From Alkalispirillum mobile (GTDB lineage Bacteria > Pseudomonadota > Gammaproteobacteria > Nitrococcales > Halorhodospiraceae): a DNA stretch of 64,000 bases. Made by a program: the position numbers and the translations under genes. Shown here piece after piece: positions 9,007-48,393 of the stretch (within the stretch, counting starts at the first letter, position 1; each line of letters opens with the position of its first letter). The DNA lies in the NCBI RefSeq assembly GCF_003664325.1, contig NZ_RCDA01000001.1:1614866-1678865 (forward strand). The letters are read 5' to 3'. The notes beneath the pieces were generated by a model that ran no database searches, was not told the origin of the DNA, and saw nothing but the letters and a program-made list of their open reading frames with translations.

Positions 9007-9019
9007 AGGAGCATTGGCC

Positions 9020-21681: not shown

Positions 21682-21751
21682 TTGGTCATCCATTCCTCAA
21701 GTCAGCTGCTACAATTCGATGTGTTTCACACACCTCGGAGGTAACTGTTTC

Positions 21752-22006
21752 ATGTCAAGTCTAGACCAGGTCAGGGATATCCTGGACAGCGCACTCAGCC
21801 TGAACGGCCGGGCCCAATCCTTCGACCGCGACACCGTGCTGCTGGGGGACCTTCCGGAGCTGGACTCGATGGCGGTGGTGTCCGTCATCACCGAGCTGGA
21901 ACAACGCTTTGGCATCGTGGTGGAGGATGACGATGTCAGCGCCGAAACCTTCGAGACCGTGGGCGCCCTCTGCGACTTCGTGGAATCGAAGCTGGAAGAG
22001 GCCTGA
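21752..22006 (+). CDS. Acyl carrier protein
   Basis: An 84-residue acidic protein with the four-helix carrier-protein pattern: MSSLDQVRDILDSAL, then LLGDLPELDSMAVVSVITELEQRFGI, then FETVGALCDFVESKL. Ser39 in LDSMAV is the phosphopantetheine attachment site, so the holo form can hold an acyl or aminoacyl group. A strong CGGAGGT Shine-Dalgarno sequence lies about 9 bases upstream. It is followed after 13 bases by the hydrolase-glycosyltransferase fusion. Likely partners are the CapK-like enzyme at 18476, the acyl-CoA ligase at 29954 and the XrtA hydrolases; small carrier proteins of this kind recur in XrtA loci. Confidence 0.92.
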   Translation: MSSLDQVRDILDSALSLNGRAQSFDRDTVLLGDLPELDSMAVVSVITELEQRFGIVVEDDDVSAETFETVGALCDFVESKLEEA

Positions 22007-26556: not shown

Positions 26557-28344
26557 TCACCAGGCCAATACCAGGCGCTGGCGGTAAGCACCGGGGGGTA
26601 GCACAGCCGGTCTCATTGCACAGCCGACAGCATGACCAATGGCGGCGTCCACAGGCACCTCGTCTACGTCCTGCTTGGCATCGTGGAAGGGTGCTTCCCC
26701 CTGGGCGGGACCGATCCGGGAAAAGGAAATCTCACGCTGCGCGGGCGGATGGATCGCCACTAGGGCGTGCCCCCCCGGATTCAAATACTCAACGGGCCGA
26801 CTCTCGCCCTGGTGTAACACCAATTCTTGAGCGACACGTCGTGATGTCCGAGCGACTGAAAACGTCAAACGAGCGCTTAGTGCATAATTCTTTCCCCTTC
26901 GTAACGCCGAGCGTCGCCCCTGGTTGCCCCCTAACCGCCAATCTACCGCTGTGAAGAAGCGCTGCCAGAACGTGATGGGCTCTGGGCGTAGCAGGGCAGT
27001 CGCAACCCCCTCCAACACCACCTGCACACCGCTGTCATCCTCTCGCACAGAAATCAGGGCATAGTCCGTTAATCCCCAGAGTTCGCCCTGTACGCGAAAG
27101 ACCGGCGTCCAACCCAACATAGCAGGCCGGGCCAACAAATCATCCCGGGCAATCCTCAGGGTGGGCGGGCAGAGGACACGGCGCTCGCAGTTGACGTGGA
27201 ACGGTACCCCGCCAGCGTAACGGAGCTCGGCGTGAGTCCGGCTGAAGGCCTGTGGGGTTTGCCCCCTGGTCGACAGGAACACTCTCAGCCCATCGTGGCC
27301 CTTAATGCACATCAGCCCTGCCTCTTGATCCTGACCCACCGCCTTATCATGATCGGGCCACCGTATGTCGGAAAGGCCGGGGCGGTTATCTCCCGATACG
27401 CGCATAAACTCAGCCCAAGCGAGGATTGCGGCGGCCCAGGCGTTGTACACCGAGAGATACATGTAATTGTCCCAGCCCGACTGGCCGGCACTCTCCCCAT
27501 CTGCCGGGGTCAACCCTATTAGGCCGTCCGAACGACGCTGGGCCTCCCAGCGCGCCAAAACGCCATCCAGCACCTGGCCAGCACCCGTAGGCCGACTTTC
27601 CGTCCCTTGGACCCCCAACAATCGGAGGCTTGCCACCAAACAAGCATCGCCGAATAGAGAATGAGTGCTTCGCCCGTAGCCGCCGGCGTGACCAGCGCCA
27701 TCCCAATAGGACAACGCCCAGTCAAGCATGCGCTGCAGGGCTTGGGAAAGCTTGCTCGAATCTACAAAGCAGGCCGCCACTGTGGTCACAAACAGGGCCT
27801 TGTGGTGATAGGCAATGGGGGTCGCCCCCAGAGTCCCCTTTTGCGGGCGGGCGGGGAAATCGATAAACCCCCCGGCGGATGTCAGCCATCGATCCAAGCT
27901 GGACAGCAGATTATCCAGCGCCCTTTGCCGGCGCCATGTGGTTTCTGCCTCGATCAGTTGGCACAGTTGAGCAAGTAGCCGCCAGTTGTTGGAAGGATAA
28001 TGCCTCTGCAGGCGACAACGATTCCGGCCCGCGAGCAAGGCGCGGCCACTTCCGACCTCCCTAGCGGCAGGCACTCCTGCGATAAGGTTGAGAAGGAAAC
28101 GATTGAACGGCGCGTGGCCGATACGCCCCTGGGCCAAGCCAAGCCAGGCCCCGAGCGGCTCCTGCCACATTGGATCGGGACCGCCCCGGCTTAGCAACAA
28201 GGCCAGGGCGGCACTGGTATTGCCGTAATGGTCTGGCGGAGTAGGGCCAGCACGCAACGGGTCCCAGAGCCCCACGCCAGGCCGGACCTGTTCACGGAGG
28301 GCATCGGTCAACAAATCCTGGCAACGGCTGAATCGCTCAACCAT
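26557..28344 (-). CDS. Uncharacterised protein, possibly alpha/alpha-toroid plus beta-sandwich carbohydrate enzyme
   Basis: A 595-residue protein I do not recognise with certainty. The first 330 residues are helical with recurrent aromatic/His/Asn blocks (YPSNNWRLLAQLCQL, GGYGRSTHSLFGDACLVASL, GWDNYMYLSVYNAWAAAIL), reminiscent of (alpha/alpha) toroid folds in polysaccharide lyases and glycoside hydrolases. The rest looks like a beta-sandwich (PVFRVQGELWGLTDYALISV, VQVVLEGVATAL). No signal peptide is visible, so it may be cytoplasmic or exported by another route. The start overlaps the O-ligase stop by 8 bases. A heparinase-like or DUF2264-like enzyme is one guess; the operon context supports action on the polymer or its precursor. 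Confidence 0.7.
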   Translation of the reverse strand: MVERFSRCQDLLTDALREQVRPGVGLWDPLRAGPTPPDHYGNTSAALALLLSRGGPDPMWQEPLGAWLGLAQGRIGHAPFNRFLLNLIAGVPAAREVGSGRALLAGRNRCRLQRHYPSNNWRLLAQLCQLIEAETTWRRQRALDNLLSSLDRWLTSAGGFIDFPARPQKGTLGATPIAYHHKALFVTTVAACFVDSSKLSQALQRMLDWALSYWDGAGHAGGYGRSTHSLFGDACLVASLRLLGVQGTESRPTGAGQVLDGVLARWEAQRRSDGLIGLTPADGESAGQSGWDNYMYLSVYNAWAAAILAWAEFMRVSGDNRPGLSDIRWPDHDKAVGQDQEAGLMCIKGHDGLRVFLSTRGQTPQAFSRTHAELRYAGGVPFHVNCERRVLCPPTLRIARDDLLARPAMLGWTPVFRVQGELWGLTDYALISVREDDSGVQVVLEGVATALLRPEPITFWQRFFTAVDWRLGGNQGRRSALRRGKNYALSARLTFSVARTSRRVAQELVLHQGESRPVEYLNPGGHALVAIHPPAQREISFSRIGPAQGEAPFHDAKQDVDEVPVDAAIGHAVGCAMRPAVLPPGAYRQRLVLAW

Positions 28345-29953: not shown

Positions 29954-31558
29954 ATGCATACGCCCACATTGGTCCATGAAACGGTCCTGAAAAGCGCCGA
30001 AAGTGCGCCATCTGCCCCCGCCTTGCGACATCGAAACTGCCCCATCGACTATGGCACGCTTGCGGATGATGTCCAGAAAGCCGCTGCGGGATTAGGCCAA
30101 TGTGGCCTCTTGAAGCAGGAACGGGTGGCGGTCTATTTGGATAAACGCCCCGAAGCTGTACACGCGCTGCTGGGCACCTCCCTGGCCGGTGGCGTATTCG
30201 TGCCGGTCAACCCGCTGCTGAAGGCCGAGCAGGTGGGCTATATCCTCCGCGACTGTAACGTGCGAGTCCTGGTCACCTCTGCAGACCGATACAAAGCGAT
30301 AAAGGCTGCGCTCGCGCACTGTCCCGATCTACACACCGTGCTGCTGGTGGATGCTGAGCCGCCAGGCCCCGGCCCGGGTGGCACTCCCCATAGGGTTCAA
30401 GCCTGGGCTGCTCTGCAAGATGCCCCCCAGGGCGCTCGAGGACACCGGACCATCGACACGGACATGGCGGCTATTCTCTATACTTCGGGGAGTACCGGGC
30501 AGCCCAAGGGGGTGGTGTTGTCCCACCAGAATATGGTGGCCGGCGCTCGAAGTGTTGCCCAGTACCTGGAGAACCGGCCCGAGGACCGCATCCTTTCGGT
30601 GCTGCCCTTCAGTTTTGACTACGGCCTCAGTCAGCTCACCACCGCCTTTCTCACCGGTGCGCAGGTGTCCTTGCTCAACTACCTGTTGCCCCGAGACGTC
30701 ATCAAGGCCGTTGACCGCGAGCAGATCACGGGGCTGGCGGCGGTGCCCCCGCTCTGGATACAGCTGGCCCAGCTCGAATGGCCGGAAGGGGCCAGCCAAA
30801 GCCTCCGCTATCTCACCAATTCCGGTGGCGCCATGCCGCGCAAGACACTGAATGCCTTGCGCGAACGCCTACCGCATACGCAGCTCTACCTGATGTATGG
30901 GCTCACTGAGGCCTTTCGCTCCACCTACCTGCCCCCAGAGGAGGTGGAGCGCCGGCCCGACTCCATGGGCAAGGCTATTCCTAACGCCGACATCATGGTG
31001 GTGCGCGAAGATGGGAGCCCCTGTGCGCCCGGAGAGCCCGGCGAGTTGGTACACCGGGGTGCACTGGTTGCACAGGGTTATTGGAACGACCCGGAGCGCA
31101 CCGCCGAGCGTTTCCGTCCCGCGCCTGGGCAACCCTCGGGGCTGCCCAGGCAGGAGCTTGCGGTCTGGTCCGGCGATACCGTCCGTATGGACGAGGACGG
31201 GTTCCTTTATTTCATCGGCAGACGGGATGAAATGATCAAGACCTCTGGCTACCGGGTCAGCCCGAATGAGGTCGAAGAGGTCATTTACAGCACCGGCCTG
31301 GTGGCGGAGGCAGCAGCCCTGGGGGTCCCGCACCCCACCTTGGGCCACGGTATCGTGGTCGTCGCACTGGCTCGTGATGAGGGATTGACCGGTGAGTCCC
31401 TGGTGAGCCAGCTACGCCCTCTGCTCCCAGCCTTCATGCTCCCAGCGCATGTGGAGTTGCGTCAGCACCCATTGCCGCGCAATGCCAACGGCAAGATCGA
31501 CCGGAAGTCGTTGGCCACCGAGTTCACCGACCTGTTTCAGGAGAATAACGCGTCGTGA
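29954..31558 (+). CDS. Acyl-CoA ligase (AMP-forming), exosortase A system-associated (TIGR03098-like)
   Basis: A 534-residue ANL-superfamily enzyme. Motifs: A3 ILYTSGSTGQPKGVVLSH (about residues 174-191), A5 YLMYGLTEAFRST (about 313-325), A7 GDTVRMDEDGFLYFIGRRDE, and A10 NANGKIDRKSL with the catalytic Lys near residue 517. It should activate a carboxylic or amino acid as an adenylate and load it on CoA or a phosphopantetheine carrier, most likely the one encoded at 21752. It opens a six-gene operon and overlaps the decarboxylase gene by four bases (GTGA). The usual name is by family; the true substrate is unknown. Confidence 0.92.
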   Translation: MHTPTLVHETVLKSAESAPSAPALRHRNCPIDYGTLADDVQKAAAGLGQCGLLKQERVAVYLDKRPEAVHALLGTSLAGGVFVPVNPLLKAEQVGYILRDCNVRVLVTSADRYKAIKAALAHCPDLHTVLLVDAEPPGPGPGGTPHRVQAWAALQDAPQGARGHRTIDTDMAAILYTSGSTGQPKGVVLSHQNMVAGARSVAQYLENRPEDRILSVLPFSFDYGLSQLTTAFLTGAQVSLLNYLLPRDVIKAVDREQITGLAAVPPLWIQLAQLEWPEGASQSLRYLTNSGGAMPRKTLNALRERLPHTQLYLMYGLTEAFRSTYLPPEEVERRPDSMGKAIPNADIMVVREDGSPCAPGEPGELVHRGALVAQGYWNDPERTAERFRPAPGQPSGLPRQELAVWSGDTVRMDEDGFLYFIGRRDEMIKTSGYRVSPNEVEEVIYSTGLVAEAAALGVPHPTLGHGIVVVALARDEGLTGESLVSQLRPLLPAFMLPAHVELRQHPLPRNANGKIDRKSLATEFTDLFQENNAS

Positions 31559-32790
31559 GCGAGAAGCGCCCAAGTCATGTGCCTATCGATAACTTCGAAG
31601 TCAAAGGGAACACCCTTTGCGTCGGCGGCGTCCCAGTGCCGGATCTGGCAGAGCGGGTCGGCCAAACGCCGTTCTATGCCTACGACCGGCAACTGATGAC
31701 GGAGCGCGTCCAGGCGTTACGCGCGGCGCTCCCCGCGGGCATCTCCATTCACTATGCGATCAAGGCCAATCCAATGCCCGCGGTTGTCGACCACATGGCA
31801 AAGCACGTGGATGGCCTGGATGTGGCCTCGGGCGGGGAGCTGCGGGTCGCGCTCGATACGGGCGCGCCCCCCGCGACGATCAGCTTTGCCGGGCCCGGGA
31901 AATCCCCAGCGGAATTGCGCGCCGCGCTGGCGGCGGGCGTGACCATCAATCTTGAATCGGAGACGGAGCTATCCCGGGTGGTCGCCATCGCAGAGACCAC
32001 CGGCCACACCCCCCAGGTCGCCGTGCGGGTTAATCCCGACTTTGAGCTGAAGGCCTCAGGCATGAGGATGAGTGGTGGTGCCAAGCCCTTCGGGGTGGAC
32101 GCGGAACGGGTGCCCGAGTTACTCCATCGAATTCGCGATCACCAACTCCATTTTCGCGGCTTTCACATTTTTTCCGGGTCGCAGAACCTGCGCGCTGATG
32201 CCCTGGTCGAGGCCCAGGGCCTGACCCTGGACCTAGCGCTGCGGCTGGCTGAATCGGCCCCGGGTCCGGTGGAAATGCTGAATATCGGCGGCGGTTTTGG
32301 TATCCCCTATTTCCCCGGCGATCAGCACCTGAACCTGGCCCCGGTCGCCGAGCACCTGGATGCACGCCTGCCCCAGGTGCGTGCTTGCCTACCGGAAGCA
32401 GAAATCATTCTGGAGTTGGGCCGCTATCTCGTAGGGGAGGCGGGCATCTACGTGGCAGAGGTGCTGGACCGCAAGGTCTCCCGGGACCGCGTGTTCCTTG
32501 TGACCAATGGTGGCCTGCACCACCACTTGGCGGCCTCGGGCAATTTTGGCCAGGTCATCCGCAAGAATTACCCGGTGGCCATCGCAAACCGAATGGCGGA
32601 AACGCCGCGGGAGACAGTGGATATCGTCGGCCCACTATGCACACCGCTGGATATCCTCGCCCAGCAGGTTCAGCTACCGAAGGCGGAAGTGGGGGACTTG
32701 ATCGCTGTTTTTCAGTCCGGCGCTTACGGCTACACTGCCAGTCCAACGCGCTTTCTGGGCCACCCGGAGCCTGTGGAGACGCTGGTCTGA
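31555..32790 (+). CDS. PLP-dependent decarboxylase, exosortase A system-associated (TIGR03099-like)
   Basis: A 411-residue type III PLP enzyme of the ornithine/diaminopimelate decarboxylase family. Lys70 in HYAIKANPMP binds PLP. FHIFSGSQ, the phosphate-binding loop GGGFGIPYF and GPLCTPLDIL, which supplies the catalytic Cys across the dimer, are all present. It starts with GTG in a GTGA overlap with the ligase gene. It probably decarboxylates an amino acid, free or carrier-bound, to an amine used to modify the polymer. The TIGR03099 family travels with the ligase in XrtA loci, so the two are thought to act on the same substrate. Confidence 0.93.
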   Translation: MSEKRPSHVPIDNFEVKGNTLCVGGVPVPDLAERVGQTPFYAYDRQLMTERVQALRAALPAGISIHYAIKANPMPAVVDHMAKHVDGLDVASGGELRVALDTGAPPATISFAGPGKSPAELRAALAAGVTINLESETELSRVVAIAETTGHTPQVAVRVNPDFELKASGMRMSGGAKPFGVDAERVPELLHRIRDHQLHFRGFHIFSGSQNLRADALVEAQGLTLDLALRLAESAPGPVEMLNIGGGFGIPYFPGDQHLNLAPVAEHLDARLPQVRACLPEAEIILELGRYLVGEAGIYVAEVLDRKVSRDRVFLVTNGGLHHHLAASGNFGQVIRKNYPVAIANRMAETPRETVDIVGPLCTPLDILAQQVQLPKAEVGDLIAVFQSGAYGYTASPTRFLGHPEPVETLV

Positions 32791-32791
32791 T

Positions 32792-33541
32792 ATGCGGGTA
32801 CGACGGCTCCTCTCGGGATTGCGTGCCACCTTCGCCCGTCTCGGACCAGGTACCGGGTCACTGTACCTGCTGGACCGGGCCGCTGGCGGGCTCAGCAGGG
32901 GACGCGCCCGCGTAATCACCTACCGGCTCTTTGCGCAGCCTCTGGCAGACTCCGTGGTGATGCCGGCCCGATTAGGCAAAAACCTGGAGATTCGCGAGGC
33001 CCGGCCAGACGATCCCGCTCTGGACCTCATGGGCCGGGGAACCACCACCCTGCAAGCCCGCTTCAACCAGGGTGCGCGCTGCCTGGTGGCATTGAAGGGT
33101 TCGGAGCTGGCAGGTTTTTTCTGGTGGGTGGAAGGCCCGTATCAGGAAGACGAGGTGCGGTGCGTCTTTCTACCCGGTCCCCCGGGGGAGGCTGCCTGGG
33201 ATTTCGACGTGTATATCCACCCCAAGTATCGCCTGAGCGGTGTCTTCGGCTGCCTCTGGTCAGCGGCGCAAGAAAAACTGATGACCTCGGGCGTTCGCTA
33301 CACTTGCAGCCGCATCTCCGCCTACAATACCAGCTCGCTGGCCGCTCATCGCCGGCTCGGCGCCCAGCAGGTCGGCATCCGGGTCTTCATCCTGTTTGGT
33401 CGATTTCAGCTTACGCTCGGCGATGCCCCCCCATACCTGCACGTCAGCCGCTCGGCGGCACGAACACCCCGCGTAGCGGTCGACCCACTCCTGGAGGCAA
33501 ACGCGCCCGACACTCAGCCTGGAACAGGAGGCGACCGATAA
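32792..33541 (+). CDS. GNAT-family N-acyltransferase
   Basis: A 249-residue protein with a GNAT-like domain in residues 60-210: LEIREARPDDPALDLM, ELAGFFWWVEGPY, WDFDVYIHPKYRLSGVFGCLW and ISAYNTSSLAAHRRLGAQQVG, the last being the usual C-terminal acetyl-CoA-site helix with the N-x-x-S-xx-x-H-R-x-L-G pattern. The N-terminal 50 residues are basic. It starts 1 base after the decarboxylase stop and ends 2 bases before the hydrolase start, so it is part of the same operon. It may acylate the amine made by the decarboxylase; this is inference from position. Confidence 0.82.
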   Translation: MRVRRLLSGLRATFARLGPGTGSLYLLDRAAGGLSRGRARVITYRLFAQPLADSVVMPARLGKNLEIREARPDDPALDLMGRGTTTLQARFNQGARCLVALKGSELAGFFWWVEGPYQEDEVRCVFLPGPPGEAAWDFDVYIHPKYRLSGVFGCLWSAAQEKLMTSGVRYTCSRISAYNTSSLAAHRRLGAQQVGIRVFILFGRFQLTLGDAPPYLHVSRSAARTPRVAVDPLLEANAPDTQPGTGGDR

Positions 33542-33543
33542 CG

Positions 33544-34476
33544 ATGCCAGTAGCGGAACAAGCCGTCATATTCCCGCATGAGGGGGAGCAGTTGCTCGGC
33601 ATCCTCCACCGCGGTGCGGCCGATGCCCGCCTCGGCGTCTTGGTTGTGGTGGGCGGCCCCCAGTATCGGGTTGGCAGCCACCGCCAGTTCTTGCTCCTGG
33701 CCCGCGATCTGGCAGCGGAGGGCGTTCCCGTCTTCCGCTTTGACTATCGCGGCATGGGGGACTCCAGCGGCGACATGCGCGGTTTCGAGGATATCGAAGG
33801 CGATATTGGAGCCGCGATTGATCAGTTCCAAAGGACTCACCCTAGCCTTGAGCAGATCGTCATCTGGGGCCTATGTGACGCTGCCTCTGCAGGGCTGCTC
33901 TATGCCTGGCGCGACTCCCGGGTCACGGGGCTGGTACTGGTCAATCCATGGATTCGCACCGAGGAAGGCCTGGCCCGCGCCTACCTGAAGAGCTATTACC
34001 TACAACGGCTGATCAGCCGAGATTTCTGGACCAGCCTGGCGGCCGGCCGGGTCAATCCCGCGAACTCCCTGCGCTCATTGCTGCAGATGACGCGAAAAGC
34101 CACCGCCAGCCGCCACCCCGACAAAGCCAGAAAGACGCCCGCGGCACAGGGTGAGCAAGCAGCAGCGCCCAGCCATCCGCCCCGACGCGCGCGGCAGCCC
34201 CTGCCCGAGCGCATGGCGGAGAGTTGGCAGCGCTTTCGGGGGCCCATTTTGCTGGTGCTCAGTGGCCAGGACCTGACCGCCACCGAGTTTCTGGATACCA
34301 CCAACCGATCCCCCGCCTGGCGGGGCCTGCTGGAGAGGCCCAACCTGCAGGTCAAGCCGTTGCCCGAGGCCAACCATACCTTCTCCCGCGATGAGTGGCG
34401 GACGCAGGTATCGGATTGGACGCTGGCATGGCTCGAAAATCCGACCGCCCACCACCGTAGGACAGCTACCCCATGA
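33544..34476 (+). CDS. Exosortase A system-associated hydrolase 1 (TIGR03100-like)
   Basis: A 310-residue alpha/beta-hydrolase. It starts MPVAEQAVIFPHEGEQLLGIL and has FRFDYRGMGDSSGD, the family's signature. The nucleophile elbow is WGLCDAAS, with Cys111 in place of Ser, like dienelactone hydrolases; the His is in ANHTFSRDEW near the C-terminus. An insert of about 50 residues rich in Ala, Arg and Pro (about 180-225) looks disordered. In XrtA loci hydrolases 1 and 2 occur with the ligase and carrier protein, so a thioesterase or acyl-transfer role is likely. Start 33544 follows the GNAT gene directly, and the stop is in an ATGA overlap with the aminotransferase gene. Confidence 0.92.
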   Translation: MPVAEQAVIFPHEGEQLLGILHRGAADARLGVLVVVGGPQYRVGSHRQFLLLARDLAAEGVPVFRFDYRGMGDSSGDMRGFEDIEGDIGAAIDQFQRTHPSLEQIVIWGLCDAASAGLLYAWRDSRVTGLVLVNPWIRTEEGLARAYLKSYYLQRLISRDFWTSLAAGRVNPANSLRSLLQMTRKATASRHPDKARKTPAAQGEQAAAPSHPPRRARQPLPERMAESWQRFRGPILLVLSGQDLTATEFLDTTNRSPAWRGLLERPNLQVKPLPEANHTFSRDEWRTQVSDWTLAWLENPTAHHRRTATP

Positions 34477-35765
34477 AACCGCACCGCAACCCCCTGCCAG
34501 ACGGGAATAGCGCGATTGAGGCCCCCTCCACGGCACAACTGGAGGCCTACCCCGGTCTGCCCCGCTTTACGAAAGGTCAAGGCTGCTGGCTTTTTGATGC
34601 GGATGGCCATCGCTATTTCGATGCCACGGCCGGCAGCGGCGCACTCAATCTGGGGCATAACCACCCGCAGGTGGTGGAGGCCGCCATTGCGCAGACGCGA
34701 AACCTGATCCACACCGGCTCCATCTTCCATAGCGATGCGCGGGATCGATTCGTTGCCAGGCTGGGCGAATTCTCTCCGTTCAGTCCATGTACGGTGCTGA
34801 CCTGCGTCGCGGGCACCGAGGCCGTAGAGGCCGCGCTGAAGGTGGCTCGCGCCTATACCGGGCGCACCCCCGTCATCTCCTTCAGCTACGCCTATCACGG
34901 CAAGAGCACCGGGGGGTTGAGCGTCACCTGGCGACAGGCGCTCCGGAAGTATTCTCCCCAGGCCGCCGACGCCGTTCAGGTGGCCCCCTATCCGTTGCAC
35001 CACGACCCCGCGGCCCCAATGGGTGAGACGGAAGCCTGCCTTGATGAACTGTCTACCATTATTGGCAACATGGCGCGTGCCGGGGCGCCCCCTGCAGCGC
35101 TGATTCTGGAGCCCGTCGCCTCCAGTGAGGGGGTCATCCCCGCGGGCAACGCATTCCTGCAAGGGGTGCAGCAACTGGCCCGCAACGCGGGGGCATTGCT
35201 GATATTCGACGAGCTTTGGACCGGAATGGGCCGATGCGGCGTGCCCTTTTATGGCGGACAAGCGGGGCTTGAACCAGACTTGATTCTGGTGGGCAAGTCG
35301 GTGGCCAACGGGTTCCCGATCTCAGCAGTGCTCGGGTCACAGGAGATCCTGGCGTCATTGCCAGCCGGCCTGCATACGGCCACCTTCGCCGGTCACCCGG
35401 TGGGCTGTGCGGCTGGCAGTGCCGTAATTGACCTGATGCAGACCACTCAGCCATGGGTTTCGGCATCAGACCAGGGGGAAGCACTCTGGCAGGGCCTGAA
35501 GACCCTGCAAGGCGAGATGGCGTTCATCACCGGCTTGCGCGGCGAAGGCTTGTTGCTGGGCTTCGACTGCGTGGACGAAACCGGACGCCCCAGCCCAGAG
35601 AAGGCCAGAACGTTTGCCGGCCACGCTCAGGAAAAGGGACTCCTGTTGGCCTACGGTGGCCGACAGGGCAATACCGTAAAGGTGACACCGCCGCTGACAA
35701 TGGATGACTCCGAGCGCGAATTTCTCATGACCACACTGGACACCGTGGCGAAGGGATTGAGCTGA
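34473..35765 (+). CDS. Class III PLP-dependent aminotransferase
   Basis: A 430-residue fold-type I class III aminotransferase. Visible motifs are AGTEAVEAALKVAR, YAYHGKS (aromatic stacking on PLP), LIFDELWTGMGR (Asp246, pyridine nitrogen) and LVGKSVANGFPIS (Lys275, Schiff base). The family includes omega-amino-acid, diaminobutyrate, ornithine and glutamate-1-semialdehyde enzymes; I cannot choose among them. Between a hydrolase and an NRPS it probably supplies or consumes the amino acid or diamine activated by the NRPS. Only 34 bases separate it from the NRPS gene. Confidence 0.92.
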   Translation: MKPHRNPLPDGNSAIEAPSTAQLEAYPGLPRFTKGQGCWLFDADGHRYFDATAGSGALNLGHNHPQVVEAAIAQTRNLIHTGSIFHSDARDRFVARLGEFSPFSPCTVLTCVAGTEAVEAALKVARAYTGRTPVISFSYAYHGKSTGGLSVTWRQALRKYSPQAADAVQVAPYPLHHDPAAPMGETEACLDELSTIIGNMARAGAPPAALILEPVASSEGVIPAGNAFLQGVQQLARNAGALLIFDELWTGMGRCGVPFYGGQAGLEPDLILVGKSVANGFPISAVLGSQEILASLPAGLHTATFAGHPVGCAAGSAVIDLMQTTQPWVSASDQGEALWQGLKTLQGEMAFITGLRGEGLLLGFDCVDETGRPSPEKARTFAGHAQEKGLLLAYGGRQGNTVKVTPPLTMDDSEREFLMTTLDTVAKGLS

Positions 35766-35799
35766 CCCAGCGGACCAAACCCAACACGAGGGCATCATA

Positions 35800-38700
35800 A
35801 TGAGCCTGGATGACAGCAGAACGCGACCCTGGCTCAGGGGCAGTCTCCACACTGGTTCGGCAGCCGAGCCTAGTGAGGTTTCGCAGCGTGCGGTCCCAAC
35901 CCGAGAGGTCCCGCTGCCCTTCACCACCATGGATGTCGACCACACGGTACCCGGGCGGTTTGAGCGCGTCGCCCAACGATTCGGAGATCGGCTGGCTGTC
36001 CGCTCACCAACCACCCAGTGGACCTATGCACAGTTAGAACAGCGGGCCAACGGCATTGCCCAAGCGATATACGCCGCTTGTCCTGAACCCGGGACTCGTG
36101 TGGGGCTGCTGTTCCCCCATGATGCCCCCATGGTTGCTGCCATGCTCGGGGCTTTGAAGGCCGGTGCCACCTACGTCCCCCTTGACCCCGCACTACCCAG
36201 TGAGCGGCTGCAATTCATGCTCGCGGACTCGGAGGCGAGTCTGCTGCTAACGGATGGCGACAATGCCACACTGGCTGCATCGCTGGCACAAGAGAGCCAA
36301 CGTGTCATCAAAACGGATGACCTCGACAACAGTGCCCCACTGACCAGCACCGTAGGGCCGGATGATTACGCTTACATCCTCTACACCTCCGGCTCCACCG
36401 GTCAGCCCAAGGGGATTCTTCAGAGTCATCGTAATTTGCTCCACCATATCCGGGTCTGGACCGAGGCGCTCGACATCACACACCGAGACCGCATGAGCCT
36501 GGCGTCCGCCTTCACCTGGGATTCCTCGCTACAGGACGCCTACGGCGCACTCCTGAACGGTGCCACCTCCTATATATTCGACGTCCGCGATCAGGGCTTT
36601 GATCGCCTGGCTGATCTGGTGGTGGCGGAACGACTCACCATTTGCCACCTGGCGGTCCCGGTGTATCGGAACCTGATGCGGGTATTGGCCAGGCGCCAGG
36701 AACGGCCTGCAGTCCGGGCCATGGCCCTGGGCGCGGACATGGTGCATCAGGCCGACATGGATGCGTTCCGTGAGTGGTTCCCGGATGAAGCCATCCTGGT
36801 AAATGCCTACGGCGCCACGGAATCCACCACGGGCACCATTTACCGAATCGACAAGACAACACAAGTGCCCTGTTATCCGCTCCCCATCGGTACGCCAGTA
36901 GACAATACGGCGGTGACCTTGGTGGGCGACGATGGGCACCCTGTCGACCCGGGCGATACGGGCGAGATCACCCTGACCAGTCGCCACGTAGCCCTCGGTT
37001 ACTTGAACAAGCCTGAGCTGACAGCGGAAAAGTTTCAGCGGCATGAAGATGTCCCCCACGTCCGGACCTACCGGACCGGCGACCTGGGCCGGCAATTGCC
37101 CGACGGCAACCTGATATTGCTCGGTCGCCGCGACAACCAAGTCAAGGTGCGTGGCATCCGCGTGGACCTGGGCGAGGTGGAATCCGCGCTCGTACAGCAC
37201 CCTGACATTCAAGAGGCCATCGTGCTGGATGTGGCCCACCCCAGCGGGGATAAACGACTGGTCGGGTATATTGTGCCGCGCGCGAATAAAGCACCGGCAA
37301 CGGAGCAAGTGCGCGCATTTCTCGGCGAGCGCCTGCCCGAGTACATGCTGCCATCCTCGCTCATCGTCCTGGAGGCGATGCCGCTTACCCCGAACGGCAA
37401 GATTGATCGCAAGGCCATGCCAGCACCAGACTGGCGTGCACGCAATCTGGACACCCCCTACCTGGCGCCCAGAGACACCCAGGAGGCCTTATTGGCCGAG
37501 GTCTTTTCTGAGGTGCTGGGGGTCGAGCCCATCGGGGTGAACGATAATTTCTTCGCGTTGGGTGGGGACTCCATACAAGCGCTGAACATTGTGCTGACCG
37601 CGGAGGCACGGGGGCTGCGAATCACACCGCATCAGGTCTTCTCGCACCCCACCGTGGCACAACTGGCTTACCTCGATCGCGAAACGCCCAGGCCTGACGA
37701 GGCTGGCCCCACCCAAGGCAGGGCTGCCAATGACCAATTGGCACAATGGAATGCGTTGCGCCAGCGGCTACCGGAGCCGGACCAGGTGGATCAGGTCTAC
37801 CCCCTATCGCCCACGCAGAAGGGGATCTATTTCCAATGCCTGATGGCGCGTAAAGATAGCGGCATCTACAAAGAGCAGACCCGGCTCACGTTAAGCGGGC
37901 AACTGGACCCGGACCTTTTTGCGGCGGCGTGGGATCACCTGATTGCCTGCCATGCGGTATTGCGTACCGCCTTTGTACGTCGGGGCCTGGGGCAGCCTCA
38001 CCAGGTCGTCCAACATCAGGCACCGGTGCCGCTGGAGATCAGAGACTGGCGTGAGCGTTCCGCATCGGAAGAGGAAACTGCCCTGAAGCGATTAGAAGCC
38101 GAAGAGATCCGCCAAGGGTTCAAGCTGGGACAGGCCCCGCTGATGCGATTGGTCCTGGTGCGCACCGGAGCACACCGGCATGAGCTGATCTGGACCTATC
38201 ACCACATCATCCTTGATGGTTGGTCGGAGAGCTTACTGATTCAGGATCTCTTGGGAACTTACGATGCCTTGCACCAGGGGCGAGAGCCCAATCTGCCGGC
38301 GCGCGCGCCCTACCGGGATTTTATCCAATGGGTCCACAACCGGTCGCCCGGAGAAGGGCCTGAGACCTTCTGGAAAGACCTGCTGAGAGGGTTCAAGCAG
38401 CCAGCCACCATGCTGGCAGAGGCCATTGACCAAAGCTCGAACGACCCCATAGACGATTTCGCGACCGCCACCATCGACCTGGACGGCCAGGCGCTGGATG
38501 GCGTCAGCCGGCAATTCCGGGTCTCCGTTAGTACCCTGATGCAGGGCATTTGGGCTGCTGTTTTGGCCCAGGCCTGCAACACCGACGATGTGGTCTACGG
38601 CACCATAGCCTCCGGCCGCGAGCAGGGGCCGAAGGGCATCGCCGACATGATCGGCCTCACCGTGAACACCCTGCCCATGCGCGTGCGGCTCACCCGCTAT

Positions 38701-39168
38701 GCCGATATCAGCGATTGGCTGCAAGACCTACAGCGGGGACTGCTCGAGGTGCGTCAGCATGCCACCAGTGACCTAGGTGACATAGAGCGTCTCAGTGAAG
38801 TCTCCTCTGACCGGCTGCCCTTGTTCGAATCGACCTTCGTCTACCTGAACCTCCCGGGTATCCCCCAGGATGGGCAAGGAGCGCTAACCATCGAGCAGCG
38901 AGCGTACCGAAGCGTCCCCCATTTCCCGCTGACGCTCTTTGTGGAGCCGGGCAACCGCCTGCGCATCCGCGCCGCCTATCGCCAGGATGCGTTCAGCCGC
39001 GCCTACATTGAGGCCCTGCTTAACGCGGTCCAGGCCCTGTCGTCCGAGATCACCCAGGGCAGTCCACGGCGTTTGGAGGACTGGATGCCAGCCGCCTACC
39101 GTGCGCTAAGCAACTCGTACAAGGCGGGCAGGTTCGCCGTCCCCGGATCATGGCCGGTAAACAGATGA
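35800..39168 (+). CDS. Nonribosomal peptide synthetase, A-T-C domain order
   Basis: A 1122-residue single-module synthetase. Adenylation domain, about residues 45-550: A3 YTSGSTGQPKG (195-205), A5 NAYGATESTTG, A7/A8 YRTGDLGRQ and GRRDNQVKVRG, and A10 NGKIDR with Lys534. The A4 region reads WDSSLQDAY, which keeps the Asp that binds the alpha-amino group, so an amino acid is the likely substrate. Carrier domain: LGGDSIQ with Ser591 as pantetheine site. Condensation domain, about 645-1100: YHHIILDGWS with catalytic His802. No thioesterase or reductase is present. The module therefore ends in a condensation domain, which could pass the aminoacyl group to a free amine or amino sugar. It ends the operon and overlaps the convergent aroE-like gene by 73 bases. 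Confidence 0.95.
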   Translation: MSLDDSRTRPWLRGSLHTGSAAEPSEVSQRAVPTREVPLPFTTMDVDHTVPGRFERVAQRFGDRLAVRSPTTQWTYAQLEQRANGIAQAIYAACPEPGTRVGLLFPHDAPMVAAMLGALKAGATYVPLDPALPSERLQFMLADSEASLLLTDGDNATLAASLAQESQRVIKTDDLDNSAPLTSTVGPDDYAYILYTSGSTGQPKGILQSHRNLLHHIRVWTEALDITHRDRMSLASAFTWDSSLQDAYGALLNGATSYIFDVRDQGFDRLADLVVAERLTICHLAVPVYRNLMRVLARRQERPAVRAMALGADMVHQADMDAFREWFPDEAILVNAYGATESTTGTIYRIDKTTQVPCYPLPIGTPVDNTAVTLVGDDGHPVDPGDTGEITLTSRHVALGYLNKPELTAEKFQRHEDVPHVRTYRTGDLGRQLPDGNLILLGRRDNQVKVRGIRVDLGEVESALVQHPDIQEAIVLDVAHPSGDKRLVGYIVPRANKAPATEQVRAFLGERLPEYMLPSSLIVLEAMPLTPNGKIDRKAMPAPDWRARNLDTPYLAPRDTQEALLAEVFSEVLGVEPIGVNDNFFALGGDSIQALNIVLTAEARGLRITPHQVFSHPTVAQLAYLDRETPRPDEAGPTQGRAANDQLAQWNALRQRLPEPDQVDQVYPLSPTQKGIYFQCLMARKDSGIYKEQTRLTLSGQLDPDLFAAAWDHLIACHAVLRTAFVRRGLGQPHQVVQHQAPVPLEIRDWRERSASEEETALKRLEAEEIRQGFKLGQAPLMRLVLVRTGAHRHELIWTYHHIILDGWSESLLIQDLLGTYDALHQGREPNLPARAPYRDFIQWVHNRSPGEGPETFWKDLLRGFKQPATMLAEAIDQSSNDPIDDFATATIDLDGQALDGVSRQFRVSVSTLMQGIWAAVLAQACNTDDVVYGTIASGREQGPKGIADMIGLTVNTLPMRVRLTRYADISDWLQDLQRGLLEVRQHATSDLGDIERLSEVSSDRLPLFESTFVYLNLPGIPQDGQGALTIEQRAYRSVPHFPLTLFVEPGNRLRIRAAYRQDAFSRAYIEALLNAVQALSSEITQGSPRRLEDWMPAAYRALSNSYKAGRFAVPGSWPVNR

Positions 39169-43142: not shown

Positions 43143-44687
43143 TCACCGCATGATAGCTCGCTCTATTTCTAGCCCATGAATCAACGGATGAAGATACCAT
43201 ATTTTTGGGCTCTTTTTCCTCATCGCATCTCGACATAACATCGCCAGAAACCTACCTTTTTTTACAATGCATGACTGGTACTTTTGGTTCTTTAATAAGT
43301 ACCAAATCGCCTCAACTGCTGACCTCCTATAAAATCTGGACTGTACATGTTCGCTAGGCTTTTTTGCTGCATGGTACTCGAATGGTATATTCCTATACTC
43401 TGGATAATATCGATGGATTACCGCGTCATGCAACCTTTTTCCAGATGTGTAAGAAGGATCAACATTTACTAGAAAATCAAAAAGATCGTGATCCAGGAAA
43501 GGACAATAAACGGTTGCCACGGAGCGATGGATACCAAATGGCAGGAGGGCAATGCCGCGCCGAGTAAGATTCCAGAAAAAGAAGGATGAAATTGGGTCAG
43601 CAAAGCCCAAGTGCCTTTTTAGTTCCTCTGAAACCTTAGCAATTGCCAGATCCCTTGTCGCACGTTTATTGAAAGAATCCTGAAAGCAGGACTGTATGAA
43701 CGGCTCTCTATTGTTTTCGTCCAATAGGCGCTTCGCAAGTTCTATCATCTTTCCAGTTCTAGCAAGGCGAAGCTTCTCTTCAGTGGTCCGAAGCCCACTT
43801 GACAGAATGTCTCCGGCAAGTCCGTCGTAAGTGCACGACACCTGCTTGCTGGCCAGATAAGCAGCCAAGGGAATGAGCCAAGCATGGCTGCTACTGCATA
43901 GCTCCGTCAGTGTAATATCCTTCATGGTCGCTGCGAAGTGAGAGGCAGGGTAGCTGACCCTGTCATGTGGAATATTGACCGCTTCTGCCACCCAGCTGGC
44001 GAGACGTGTATCTTCGTCGTCTATAGATGGTTGGCCGTGCACAGTCACGGTCCGAGTTGGTGGGCACCCTTGGGCAGACAGTTCGAGAAGGATATGCCGA
44101 GAGTCGCGCCCACCGCTTAGTGGCAATACCACATTATTCGTATTAGGGAGGCGACGAGAGATAGCTTGACTGAAAAGCTCTGCGTAGCGATCTACAATTT
44201 GATCAAACTCCATGGAGACTGGCTTTGGAGTTGGCCTCGCGCGCTCATCGGTTTGCAGAGTTAGTTTGCCTCTACACCACGTTAACCGGGAGCTCGGCGG
44301 AAGGATCTTTAAATCTCGAAATGGCGTATCATCAGACAGGAAAAAACCGAGGCGAAAATAAACAGATAGGGCACCATAATCCAGTTCTGCTGCCCCTCCT
44401 AACTCAAGCACCTTTGTAATGGATGGAGACAGTATTAGGCTGCGCCCTTTAGCGGCATAAAACAGAGGGTAAATCCCGTATCGGTCATTCCGTACAGTGA
44501 GATTCTCTCCATCCCATCCCCATTCAGCAAATATACCGTCCTCTGGTAAGCCACTACCGCTATTTGAATTAATCTTGTGACCTAGCGCGCACCGCGGGGC
44601 CCCGGATTGCACAATAGAGGACCCCTTCATATCTACTGCGATGAAAGGCCTCTCACCATCAGTTAGCGATTCGATATTTGGCGTCAC
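43143..44687 (-). CDS. Asparagine synthase-like protein lacking the glutaminase nucleophile
   Basis: A 514-residue AsnB homologue. The PP-loop LPLSGGRDSRHIL (residues 188-200) and DGLAGDILSSG are intact, so AMP-forming chemistry on a carboxylate is possible. The N-terminal region keeps the fold pattern (NDRYGIYPLFYA) but has no N-terminal Cys: it starts MTPNIES, from a GTG directly after an in-frame stop. It resembles beta-lactam-synthetase- or lasso-cyclase-type AsnB relatives, which use an internal amine rather than glutamine. Base composition is much more AT-rich than the core operon, a sign of transfer. Upstream on the same strand, after 190 bases, is the three-propeller protein gene. Confidence 0.85.
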   Translation of the reverse strand: MTPNIESLTDGERPFIAVDMKGSSIVQSGAPRCALGHKINSNSGSGLPEDGIFAEWGWDGENLTVRNDRYGIYPLFYAAKGRSLILSPSITKVLELGGAAELDYGALSVYFRLGFFLSDDTPFRDLKILPPSSRLTWCRGKLTLQTDERARPTPKPVSMEFDQIVDRYAELFSQAISRRLPNTNNVVLPLSGGRDSRHILLELSAQGCPPTRTVTVHGQPSIDDEDTRLASWVAEAVNIPHDRVSYPASHFAATMKDITLTELCSSSHAWLIPLAAYLASKQVSCTYDGLAGDILSSGLRTTEEKLRLARTGKMIELAKRLLDENNREPFIQSCFQDSFNKRATRDLAIAKVSEELKRHLGFADPISSFFFWNLTRRGIALLPFGIHRSVATVYCPFLDHDLFDFLVNVDPSYTSGKRLHDAVIHRYYPEYRNIPFEYHAAKKPSEHVQSRFYRRSAVEAIWYLLKNQKYQSCIVKKGRFLAMLCRDAMRKKSPKIWYLHPLIHGLEIERAIMR

Positions 44688-44877: not shown

Positions 44878-47800
44878 TTAGCGCGTTGAATCTGCCTGGC
44901 CGTCCTTCATTCTGTGTAGGATTAGTCCGCGATCAGGATCAAAGAACACGACCAAATCTGTTCCTGGTACGGCGTTCATCTGCACATACCCAGTAGCACC
45001 GAACAGCCCCCTCCGGCCACGGAACCTTTCCAGCCCTTCGGGAAAACGTGCATCCGATAGGTCTTCGAAACTCTCATAGACATGCCAGTGCTTTCCATCT
45101 GGACTTCTCCAGATAGCGCCGTGTTGTCTGTTCCACCAAAGATAGTCCCCTGACACAGGGTCGTAACCGATAGTCCCGTACCTGGGACTAAAGGGCGGTA
45201 GCTCAAAGCCATCCCCAACCGCCCTGTCAATTTTTTCTACCCATGGCGTTGGTCCTTCGTCGGAAGGACTCACCACTCTGCTATCACCCCCATCATGATG
45301 GATGATCGCCCACTCCCTTCTCGGCTCGCTTCCCTCGGGCTGATTACCAAACTCAATCCCTGGCGCAACCAACATTTGCTGTTTGATGGGGTTGTATAGC
45401 AACTGGCCTTGGTATTGCCCAGAGTAAAGGACATCAAACTGGACCCACTCAGGATTGGGGGGACGCAAAAACATAGCTCTGGCATACCAGCGCTTGCCAA
45501 GTGCCTGCCCTTCCTCTGTGTGACCTTCCTGGGAAAAAGGGGTGGGCTCTTTGGTGCCGGAGCGGCGGCCAACAAAGACCCATCCGCCCAAGTCGGGATA
45601 CCATGCGACGGCGAAGTCACCCGTGCCGTTCATGTTGGATATTCCTAATCCTCGACTAACTCTTTCCCATTTCACATCCGTATCTCCTTCCAGATACGGT
45701 TCGATGGGAGCCCTTAGGAGATGGCCTCGCGTCGACCTTCCGCCACCTTCCTTCGTGTTCGATGATGGCCAATACAGATAGCCGTCCACTAGAGACAGGC
45801 GGTTGAACGGACGGCGGTCATCAAGACACTCGTCCAGCGGAAGTTGGCGAACGGTATTCCATTCCAGGTCTCTATCAAGCACGAACAGCCGTTTCTCACT
45901 ACCTCCCCGCATGCCAATCGCCCAGAACGATTGCGTCTCAGGGTCATAGGCGAATGACCCAGTCCAGCCTAGCGCGTGCGTCCCCCCATCACCCGGGTCA
46001 CCACGGCAGGAGCCCACGCGAAACCGTGGGGTGTTTTTTGTTTCGATGTAGCGCCATTCGCCCGGAGCCATATCCTCACCGATAGCAGCAAGGGCCTCAT
46101 GGGGCTGCTGCTCGACTTCAACCCCAGGTTCAGGCACTTCTGGAGAGGCCTTCGGCTTACTCAAGTCACCACCGGGTGCTGCTCGGGAACGGCTAGGTCT
46201 TGACGCTGCCTGCGTTGAATCGGCAGACGCGGTATCAGACGCTAAACGGTGACGGTATAACCGCGGCCCGTGCTCGTACTGCCAGAAAATTATTCCAAGC
46301 TCATCGATGGGAATGGGCACAACAGTGCCGTATTCATGGAAAGGCCAACCATCGGATGACCACTCCCATGCCGGCCGCCAGTGGTCCGCGTCGGCGTCAT
46401 ACTCCCAAAGCGTGCGCTCGTCCCAGCGCAGCACTAGGTACTTTCCGGACTGAGGATCGTAGGTGATGTGGTCCAAAGACATCTGAAAGGCAAATGGCAG
46501 ATCGCTGGCTTCAGAAACCTCACCGTCTGCGTCTAGGATGCTCACCGCCTGCTCGCTCCCATCTCCGCCGATTACCAGTAGTTCCTGGCGCACGGGGTTG
46601 TATTGCGCGGACGAACGATCGCCGCTAACTCCCGTGGTCCCGAGCTCTTGCCAGCGCTCGCCTTCGAAGCCACGAACAACGCCCTCCTTGACACTGATGA
46701 GCATGTCCAACGCCTGATGCCATTCGATGGGGGTATTGCCACCTATGGGCGTCTCCCCGAGTCTGCTCCAACGGGCCTCCTCAATCTCGTAGCGATACAG
46801 GGCTTCGCCCGACAAGCGGTAATAGTGCCCACGCGTCGCATCAAACGCCGTCCTACTGTAGATATAGCGCTCGGGGTCTTGGTCGGGCGGAGGCGTTCCC
46901 TCCCACCCCAACTCTTCCCAGCGGTTTTCGTCTGCTCGATAGGTGATGAATTTATTGACGCCTCCAAGGCCGTGAAACAGCGTCTGTCGCCGCTGCGAAT
47001 CCCAGTGACCACCATCGGCCCAAGCGTCTATGCGCCCTCGCCGACCATCCGGGCTTTGCACTAAAAACATCTCCCGTAAGCGCGCAACTCCGGCGGGCGG
47101 CGAGGATTCCAGGCTGACAAAACGGCCCGGTGCCAAATTGGCGGCATGTTGGCCTAACTCAGTCTGAGCCAATGCCGATGGTGGCGCTGCCACCGTAGAC
47201 TGGTGCTCGGTGGCAACCTGTTTGGCGCTAGGTAGTTGTTCTTCGGTGGGACTTGGCGCCGCTCCTTCCTTCTGTGGAGGAGAGGAGGTTGATCGCTGTG
47301 CAGAGCGTGAAGTGTCCGCAATGGGATTGGAAGGGGAGGCATCTGAAAACGCACTGGAATGGCGATAAACCACTGGGCCACTTCGGTGCATCCAGAGAAT
47401 CACCCCTAGTTCATCAATGGGAATCAGAACGTGCCCAAAGAAGCTACCGAAACGCCACTCCTCTTGGTTTTCGTCCTTCCAGTCCGCTGCCTTTCGCCAC
47501 CTGTCACGTGAAGGATCATATTCCCAGAGTTGAAACGTTTTTCGGTGCAGCGCGAGGTAGTTTCCGCTTTCCGGGTCATATCCAATACAGTGATGCTGCG
47601 TGGACCAGTTAAACGGGAGATCATTCATCTCATGGAGTTGGCCGTCTGCTGTGAACAGAGAGACCCGGCGCTCGCTTCGCCGACCGCCAACGATGAGCAT
47701 TTCTTCTCTCGCCCGGTTATAGATCATATTGGCGTGCTGACTACGATGACGCACCCGAGCCTCTGGCTGCCACTCGCCACCACGGAACGCATACAGTTGC

Positions 47801-48393
47801 TCGTCTCCTAACGCGAGCAGGCGGCCCAGACCCTCGTGGAACTCCATGGGACTGAAGTGCTGGCCGGGGTAAGCATCGCTGGCCAGTTCCCAGCGATCCT
47901 CGTCGATGCGGTACCGAAACAGGCGCCGTTGCGCTGCCCGATAGAAATAACCTTGGTCTACGTCCAGCCCCACCGTCCCCCACTGGTGGCCAGCAGTGGG
48001 AATCTCCTCCGCCAAGGCATTGTGATGCCAGCGGTTTTCAACGGCATCGTAGGAGTGAAAGACATTGCGGTGCCGATCTCCAAAGAAGAAGGTGCGTTTA
48101 CGCTTGGGATCCCACTGGCCCCGCGCATTCCACGTATCTGGGTCGGCAGCGGTACCGTGGATATGAAATTCCGAAAAGCTTTGAAACTCGGGCGGTAACT
48201 CACCTCTCAATGGCGTGAACTCACCTCTGGTAGTGTCCTCTGCCACAGATGCAAGGTGTGTCTCAGACAGCAGTGGTTCCGTTGCTTTGGCGACTGGGCA
48301 AAGTCCAATCCCCCCAAATATAACAAGCGCTATTAAGCCGAAGTGGCTCGATACTTTTTTTCCACGGGCCGACCAGGGTTGGCAAGGGAACAT
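44878..48393 (-). CDS. Secreted protein with three tandem beta-propeller-like units
   Basis: A 1171-residue exported protein of no family I can name. A signal peptide (basic KK, hydrophobic core LIALVIFGGIGL, cut after VAKA at about 37) leads into three units of about 300-390 residues: 57-347, 423-718 and 778-1166. They are joined by Ser/Pro/Gln/Ala-rich linkers (348-420 and 719-775). Each unit opens with G-E/R-F/W-x-x-(I/L), contains kelch-like blades such as WEYDPSRDRWR, YRADENRWEEL and LFRYRIDEDRWEL, and ends with a shared close: IPIDELGVILW, IPIDELGIIFW, and in the third VPGTDLVVFF. GGAG lies 6 bases before the ATG. It is probably periplasmic or surface-bound, perhaps binding the polymer; function unknown. 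Confidence 0.85.
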   Translation of the reverse strand: MFPCQPWSARGKKVSSHFGLIALVIFGGIGLCPVAKATEPLLSETHLASVAEDTTRGEFTPLRGELPPEFQSFSEFHIHGTAADPDTWNARGQWDPKRKRTFFFGDRHRNVFHSYDAVENRWHHNALAEEIPTAGHQWGTVGLDVDQGYFYRAAQRRLFRYRIDEDRWELASDAYPGQHFSPMEFHEGLGRLLALGDEQLYAFRGGEWQPEARVRHRSQHANMIYNRAREEMLIVGGRRSERRVSLFTADGQLHEMNDLPFNWSTQHHCIGYDPESGNYLALHRKTFQLWEYDPSRDRWRKAADWKDENQEEWRFGSFFGHVLIPIDELGVILWMHRSGPVVYRHSSAFSDASPSNPIADTSRSAQRSTSSPPQKEGAAPSPTEEQLPSAKQVATEHQSTVAAPPSALAQTELGQHAANLAPGRFVSLESSPPAGVARLREMFLVQSPDGRRGRIDAWADGGHWDSQRRQTLFHGLGGVNKFITYRADENRWEELGWEGTPPPDQDPERYIYSRTAFDATRGHYYRLSGEALYRYEIEEARWSRLGETPIGGNTPIEWHQALDMLISVKEGVVRGFEGERWQELGTTGVSGDRSSAQYNPVRQELLVIGGDGSEQAVSILDADGEVSEASDLPFAFQMSLDHITYDPQSGKYLVLRWDERTLWEYDADADHWRPAWEWSSDGWPFHEYGTVVPIPIDELGIIFWQYEHGPRLYRHRLASDTASADSTQAASRPSRSRAAPGGDLSKPKASPEVPEPGVEVEQQPHEALAAIGEDMAPGEWRYIETKNTPRFRVGSCRGDPGDGGTHALGWTGSFAYDPETQSFWAIGMRGGSEKRLFVLDRDLEWNTVRQLPLDECLDDRRPFNRLSLVDGYLYWPSSNTKEGGGRSTRGHLLRAPIEPYLEGDTDVKWERVSRGLGISNMNGTGDFAVAWYPDLGGWVFVGRRSGTKEPTPFSQEGHTEEGQALGKRWYARAMFLRPPNPEWVQFDVLYSGQYQGQLLYNPIKQQMLVAPGIEFGNQPEGSEPRREWAIIHHDGGDSRVVSPSDEGPTPWVEKIDRAVGDGFELPPFSPRYGTIGYDPVSGDYLWWNRQHGAIWRSPDGKHWHVYESFEDLSDARFPEGLERFRGRRGLFGATGYVQMNAVPGTDLVVFFDPDRGLILHRMKDGQADSTR

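Follow-up and report, generated by a model that had tools for sequence, protein, structure and literature searches.

The 64,000-nucleotide stretch of the Alkalispirillum mobile genome analyzed here (hereafter the window) contains an exosortase A (xrtA) locus and, at positions 29954-39168, six open reading frames (ORFs) on the plus strand, each with a start and a stop codon. The first (29954-31558) encodes a member of family TIGR03098 predicted, from NCBIfam, PDB matches, and alignment, to be a VinN-like L-aspartyl (beta-carboxyl)-carrier-protein ligase, whose D222, S290, and R322 correspond to D230, S299, and R331 of VinN. It is followed by a pyridoxal phosphate (PLP) decarboxylase of family TIGR03099 (31555-32790), predicted from NCBIfam, a PDB match, and alignment to be a BtrK-like isoaspartyl-acyl carrier protein (ACP) decarboxylase; by a GNAT-fold acyltransferase (32792-33541; Pfam near the cut-off and an AlphaFold model); and by hydrolase 1 (TIGR03100; 33544-34476; NCBIfam and alignment), an alpha/beta hydrolase with Cys-Asp-His and a candidate carrier-to-acceptor acyltransferase or thioesterase. 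The last two genes, both assigned with Pfam, encode a protein of class III aminotransferase fold (34473-35765; PF00202) and a nonribosomal peptide synthetase (NRPS; 35800-39168) with adenylation (A, ~35959-37419), thiolation (T, ~37489-37668), and condensation (C, ~37789-39057) domains. The successive junctions are a 4-base overlap, a 1-base gap, a 2-base gap, a 4-base overlap, and a 34-base gap, and the six codirectional genes form one operon. An initial annotation, made from the sequence alone, had described six mostly overlapping or closely spaced genes on one strand and had guessed the same six families; the coordinates and codons uphold the former, and the NCBIfam and Pfam searches the latter. 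The GC content is 61-66% in the operon, 68% at 20-23 kb, and 43-59% across 40-52 kb (43% at 50-51 kb). The genome holding the window measures 2.95 Mb and is 99.7% complete.

Three of the products exceed the cut-offs of XrtA-associated families, as the annotation had also proposed: the ligase scores 790 bits against TIGR03098 (cut-off 592), the decarboxylase 637 against TIGR03099 (478), and hydrolase 1 352 against TIGR03100 (168). These models, together with TIGR03101, are of the NCBIfam type hypoth_equivalog, and the window members are over the cut-off of each. The carrier protein that had been pointed to at 21752 is real as well. It is a stand-alone ACP (21752-22006, plus strand; PF00550, 30.8 bits) with the phosphopantetheine serine at Ser39 (ELDSM), and is likely the partner of the ligase and decarboxylase.

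The top single-enzyme PDB match of the ligase is 3wvn (217.5 bits), which together with 3wv4 we take to be VinN. Ligase residues D222, S290, and R322 align with residues 246, 315, and 347 of the 3wvn chain; these numbers exceed those of VinN D230, S299, and R331 by 16 in every case, and this constant offset supports the identification. The multi-module LgrA outscores VinN, but by four summed stretches, the single stretches reaching 29-52 bits; with the active-site fragment of the ligase, VinN is ahead at 102.6 bits versus 76.6. Among 45 other XrtA ligases (43 rows of the main alignment plus those of loci L064 and L076), the aspartate and the arginine are each kept in 45 and a serine or threonine in 44. 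The D/S/R pattern occurs in none of the seven paralogues aligned, out of 11 other adenylating genes in the genome (by hand count), nor in the A domain of the operon's own NRPS. The DltA model scores far below its cut-off on both the ligase and the NRPS. In the bolagladin paper, the three residues are assigned to the amino and alpha-carboxyl groups (PMC7756342). With equivalents of Asp230, Ser299, and Arg331 in place, our enzyme has the residues expected of a VinN-type ligase and would load aspartate or 3-methylaspartate through the beta-carboxyl onto an ACP.

The closest PDB matches of the decarboxylase are the BtrK structures 7ru7 (262.6 bits) and 2j66 (262.0 bits), the next chain being a probable diaminopimelate decarboxylase at 163.5; the lysA model (TIGR01048) is not reached (263.4 bits for a cut-off of 297.9). 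We aligned 48 XrtA decarboxylases, our own included, with BtrK and 15 comparison rows, which are TIGR03099 matches from other genomes that score under the cut-off and presumably represent diaminopimelate decarboxylases. One of the latter, L024, whose gene is also listed as L052 of genome G079, is atypical, yet was kept in the set. Twenty-three columns separate the XrtA decarboxylases from the comparison rows, for example T363, which is E in 14 of the 15. At these columns BtrK agrees with the XrtA decarboxylases in 14, with the comparison rows in four, and with neither in five. In an unrooted FastTree tree the 14 comparison rows other than L024 form one clade with support 1.000. By bit score and by the separating columns, the decarboxylase appears closer to BtrK than to diaminopimelate decarboxylases. 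Long frames in L064 and L076 suggested a fusion of ligase and decarboxylase, which was ruled out, the ligase lying in another frame.

The same genes recur together in other genomes. We collected 47 other ligase/decarboxylase loci: 94 relatives gave 14 over the cut-off, and 396 further genomes of the phylum gave 33 at E<=1e-130 (31 over the cut-off). Of the 47, 41 are full contexts of ~20 kb and six lie on short contigs; none of the 47-locus counts includes L052, which is under the cut-off. The 41 full contexts contain the decarboxylase in 41, the ligase in 37 by ORF match (39 with tblastn), the carrier in 34, hydrolase 1 in 29, hydrolase 2 (a TIGR03101 protein, described below) in 23, the GNAT protein in three, and the aminotransferase and NRPS in none. 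Ligase and decarboxylase share a strand with a gap of <60 bases in 34 of the 41, and thus their pairing is not due to chance. The gap between ligase and carrier is <1.3 kb in 27 of the 31 cases measured; in most cases the carrier gene is divergent from the adjacent ligase, at the head of a run with the hydrolases, and it is found <=1.5 kb from and on the same strand as hydrolase 1 in 25 pairings and hydrolase 2 in 19. Among 397 sampled phylum genomes (own included), TIGR03099 is present at E<=1e-130 in 34 and XrtA over the cut-off in 42. Both occur in 29 genomes versus ~3.6 expected (hand count), and five TIGR03099 genomes are without XrtA over the cut-off. The operon splits into a conserved core, consisting of the ligase, the decarboxylase, the separate carrier at 21752, and often hydrolases 1 and 2, and an add-on formed by the aminotransferase and the NRPS.

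From the family and residue assignments, we consider it probable that the core performs aminoacyl-carrier decarboxylation with beta-alanine as product (L-Asp to isoaspartyl-ACP to beta-alanyl-ACP). The ligase would adenylate L-aspartate at the beta-carboxyl and charge the stand-alone carrier (21752-22006), and the decarboxylase would strip the alpha-carboxyl from the carrier-bound isoaspartyl group to leave beta-alanyl-S-ACP. Here the family fit, key residues, homology, and gene linkage are computed, and from them we infer substrate, product, reactions, and transfer. The amino-acid conjugate that the annotation had expected of the operon is best read as one built on a carrier protein, by the aminoacyl-carrier logic of VinN plus BtrK/VinO.

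This chemistry looks like a trick of antibiotic pathways, aspartate loaded on a carrier and trimmed to beta-alanine, that may have been reused in exopolysaccharide loci. The vicenistatin starter module comprises VinN-VinL-VinO with VinM, VinK, and VinJ (PMC11284099). The likeness includes an ANL ligase with D/S/R, a stand-alone ACP, and a PLP decarboxylase, and extends to a second adenylating enzyme adding an amino acid to the carrier-bound amine, plus an amidohydrolase. The vicenistatin module, however, feeds a polyketide synthase, whereas ours lies in an exopolysaccharide locus with an A-T-C NRPS in place of VinM, and no counterpart of VinK was identified. The same trio, BolO/BolC/BolN, has been proposed for the conversion of aspartate to beta-alanyl-ACP in bolagladin biosynthesis, where a bolN deletion was not rescued by beta-alanine (PMC7756342). 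It shares the proposed loading of Asp through the beta-carboxyl on a free-standing ACP, a BtrK-like decarboxylase, and an NRPS downstream, but has a fatty-acyl starter, a four-module NRPS, and no polysaccharide locus. D-alanylation by DltA-DltC offers another parallel: there, too, an adenylating enzyme loads a carrier with an amino acid destined for a polymer of the envelope. That system uses the alpha-carboxyl of D-Ala and is not known to involve a decarboxylase. MBOAT had no match among the part of the window proteins scanned with Pfam. Within CC-licensed PMC articles, a limit that makes absence weak, we found no paper tying the XrtA families to BtrK, VinN, or beta-alanine, and none linking exosortase loci to NRPS decoration; in the main text of the Rubrivivax, Thauera, and Aquincola papers the word decarboxylase is absent and ligase occurs only as T4 DNA ligase.

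In hydrolase 1 the nucleophile C111 (GLCDA) is kept in 29 of the 29 relatives found, and C111, D243, and H278 do not vary in an alignment of 21 sequences that includes our own; this Cys-Asp-His triad would suit acyl transfer. Fold searches left esterases, lipases, and the thioesterase DcsB tied at Z ~25, and therefore the fold does not separate a hydrolase from a transferase. Hydrolase 2 (TIGR03101; 22020-23807, plus strand; NCBIfam and alignment, start codon read by eye) is fused to a family 2 glycosyltransferase (GT2) domain. It has Arg at the nucleophile site, as do 21 of the 22 rows with a letter there (23 rows in all), and so its family is probably one of pseudo-hydrolases. The GNAT protein is weak by sequence (20.5 bits versus a Pfam cut-off of 20.7), and its AlphaFold model (pLDDT 84.6) matches GNAT structures (6wqc, Z 14.2, rmsd 2.5, 139 aligned); the fold search returned many acetyltransferases and FemA at Z 11.9, and is not decisive.

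Upstream, the plus strand encodes an XrtA polysaccharide deacetylase (7933-9006; NCBIfam context), which would yield free sugar amines, a FemAB family XrtA protein (8939-10072; context) that is a possible aminoacyl transferase, and exosortase A with an EpsI domain (11323-12891; NCBIfam context). The window further encodes three more deacetylase-like proteins, a UDP-GlcNAc 2-epimerase, and a UDP-sugar dehydrogenase. Together these genes suggest an amino-sugar polymer with free amines, a plausible acceptor. In other XrtA loci with the module, a Cys hydrolase, GNAT, or FemAB protein would pass the beta-alanyl group on to the exopolysaccharide, with sugar amines exposed by the deacetylases of the locus as the probable acceptors. 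Such a transfer to the polymer is possible, but we hold it to be somewhat doubtful.

The aminotransferase scores 289 bits against PF00202, and its nearest structures are near-tied, an Ala/Ser racemase at 187.6 bits and a GABA (gamma-aminobutyric acid) aminotransferase at 183.6. The Pfam domains of the NRPS are, in order, AMP-binding, AMP-binding_C, PP-binding, and Condensation, with the conserved motifs GGDS (phosphopantetheine) and HHIILDG (HHxxxDG). Its A-domain code, read by eye, is about D-S-Q-H-M-L-A-T-G-K; we know of no confident match to this code and consequently claim no substrate. Pfam searches of the genome gave five carrier domains, one phosphopantetheinyl transferase gene (PF01648, AcpS-like by eye), and a single C domain, that of the NRPS, in which no thioesterase was matched. 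Lacking both a thioesterase and any additional module, the NRPS requires a trans acceptor for its C domain, and within the locus beta-alanyl-ACP is the obvious candidate. As the bearer of the only C domain found in the genome, and without a thioesterase, the NRPS may extend carrier-bound beta-alanine. With its terminal C domain it would join a single amino acid to the free amino group of beta-alanyl-S-ACP and so form aminoacyl-beta-alanyl-ACP, a step comparable to the VinM capping in vicenistatin, and the aminotransferase might supply or alter the residue added. This extension is the weakest step of our proposal and is advanced tentatively.

Our searches found no close relatives of the add-on. 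The aminotransferase had no match at E<=1e-80 in the 94 relatives, nor any at E<=1e-70 in a further 397 genomes of the phylum (up to four first-look candidates scored in each) or at E<=1e-60 in plasmids. The NRPS gave generic matches only, at 32-37% identity in three of the 94 relatives at E<=1e-100 (up to seven candidates scored in each genome); the plasmid search gave 726 records, all at <60% identity, of which the eight listed are at 33-35%. Contig scans by six short peptide patterns, which detect close relatives only, found neither gene. The annotation had proposed that the two extend the XrtA toolkit. The other loci speak otherwise, each of the two being found in 0 of 47, and related genomes carry the core without them, which is one half of what the annotation had said would refute its claim. 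While the ligase, the decarboxylase, and hydrolases 1 and 2 are members of XrtA/PEP-CTERM families, the NRPS and aminotransferase are an extra of this locus. What is new is the predicted chemistry of the conserved core, and not an NRPS extension of the toolkit.

A number of observations weigh against the beta-alanine proposal. In the 45 other ligases the serine site is Ser in 37, Thr in seven, and Ala in one (L085, whose decarboxylase is under the cut-off). Loci L061 and L084 carry the decarboxylase with no ligase in ~20 kb, and seven of the 41 full contexts gave no carrier match. TIGR03099 has no match at E<=1e-130 in 13 of the 42 XrtA genomes, so that some XrtA systems do without the module. 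The AcpS-like enzyme, the sole phosphopantetheinyl transferase found, may load the NRPS T domain poorly. The unrooted tree places BtrK, with weak support (0.365), between the diaminopimelate clade and the XrtA rows, and therefore a sister relation of BtrK to the XrtA family is not established. Furthermore, the substrate of BtrK, the decarboxylase of known structure nearest to ours, is glutamyl-ACP, a carrier-bound amino acid (PMC7857480), which leaves room for GABA as the product. The core would in that case make GABA or another omega-aminoacyl carrier thioester with glutamate replacing aspartate. We judge this unlikely, given that the ligase matches VinN and its residues fit aspartate-type acids activated at the beta-carboxyl. 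Butirosin BtrI-BtrK shares the decarboxylase family and decarboxylation on a carrier, but uses glutamate as substrate and a different type of ligase. Very improbable in our view is that the names on file are right, so that the locus would obtain an acyl-CoA from an acyl-CoA ligase, as NCBIfam calls TIGR03098, and an amine from a diaminopimelate-like decarboxylase acting on a free amino acid; the lysA score under its cut-off, the BtrK-type residues of the decarboxylase, the conserved D/S/R of the ligase, and the carrier gene beside it all argue otherwise.

The add-on and the GNAT protein lend themselves to other readings as well. The NRPS and aminotransferase might make a separate soluble small molecule, standing by chance at the end of the operon, with the core independent of both. 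Their absence from 47 of 47 other loci (six on short contigs), the lack of any close relative found, and a locus edge that looks variable, with GC at 43-59% just downstream (40-52 kb), fit this account. Nevertheless, the aminotransferase overlaps hydrolase 1 by 4 bases and is followed by only 34 bases before the NRPS, both genes have the GC content of the ligase and decarboxylase (61-66%), and neither an NRPS thioesterase match nor a second C domain is present in the genome to finish a free peptide. We regard a separate product as a serious alternative that falls short of an even chance. As for the GNAT protein, N-acyl amino acid synthases have been reported beside PEP-CTERM/exosortase genes, as stated, with reference to a 2011 paper, in PMC7293339. 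That our protein is one of them is quite unlikely, considering that it has no NCBIfam family match at E<=0.001, that of N-acyl amino acid synthase included, and that its relatives occur at five of the 47 loci only.

Other genes of the window deserve a brief description. Two asparagine-synthase-like proteins with poor glutaminase halves (19825-21693 and 43143-44687) stand alongside a regular XrtA amidotransferase at 14100; the product of the former has no Cys at position 2, and that of the latter matches GATase_7 below the cut-off. The XrtA operon also includes a PaaK/DVU_1553-like adenylating enzyme (18476-19828), which stays below the cut-off of each model that it matches and has no match in the 41 full contexts. 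The 595-residue protein at 26557-28344 adjoins an O-glycosylation ligase and has no Pfam or NCBIfam match; a 35% relative sits beside the same ligase family in L045. At 44878-48393 a 1171-residue protein gave no NCBIfam match and a sub-threshold Kelch match only.

The trio is also found outside XrtA loci, on plasmids. On a Sinorhizobium meliloti plasmid, ligase, decarboxylase, and ACP are consecutive; a glycosyltransferase and a polysaccharide deacetylase come next, and 25 kb of the region (the gene table being incomplete) include no annotated exosortase. Aureimonas has a ligase-decarboxylase pair with a carrier gene ~2 kb upstream, and a Paracoccus ferrooxidans plasmid the order ligase, ACP, decarboxylase. 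One ligase in each of five named plasmid clusters, the S. meliloti and P. ferrooxidans ligases among them, reads D-T-R. In Rahnella and Tritonibacter the enzymes are alongside KAS III-type genes, resembling bolagladin-type clusters, and three further adenylating enzymes aligned from these two do not have the Arg. Upstream of the ligase in Sinorhizobium and Aureimonas lies a conserved protein (L091:9505-10392 and L092:7503-8372; 60% alike) with no Pfam match; it is GNAT-like by eye, and a candidate transferase of the module.

For neither TIGR03098 nor TIGR03099 does NCBIfam state a specific reaction, common as the latter is in the phylum. The proposal put forward here names a concrete substrate (L-Asp), carrier, and product (beta-alanyl-ACP), and can thus be tested with simple enzyme assays. 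In its broadest form, which is speculative and in our estimate rather less than an even prospect, XrtA, some rhizobial, and other polysaccharide loci would convert aspartate on an ACP to beta-alanine and pass it to deacetylated sugars via a Cys hydrolase or GNAT, in Dlt-like fashion, with the NRPS of our locus lengthening the tag to a dipeptide and giving a nonribosomal peptidyl-polysaccharide. The S. meliloti plasmid copy of the trio provides a tractable model. If the proposal is true, the function of the XrtA accessory genes becomes a question of chemistry, and amine tags on the exopolysaccharide would bear on biofilm and floc formation.

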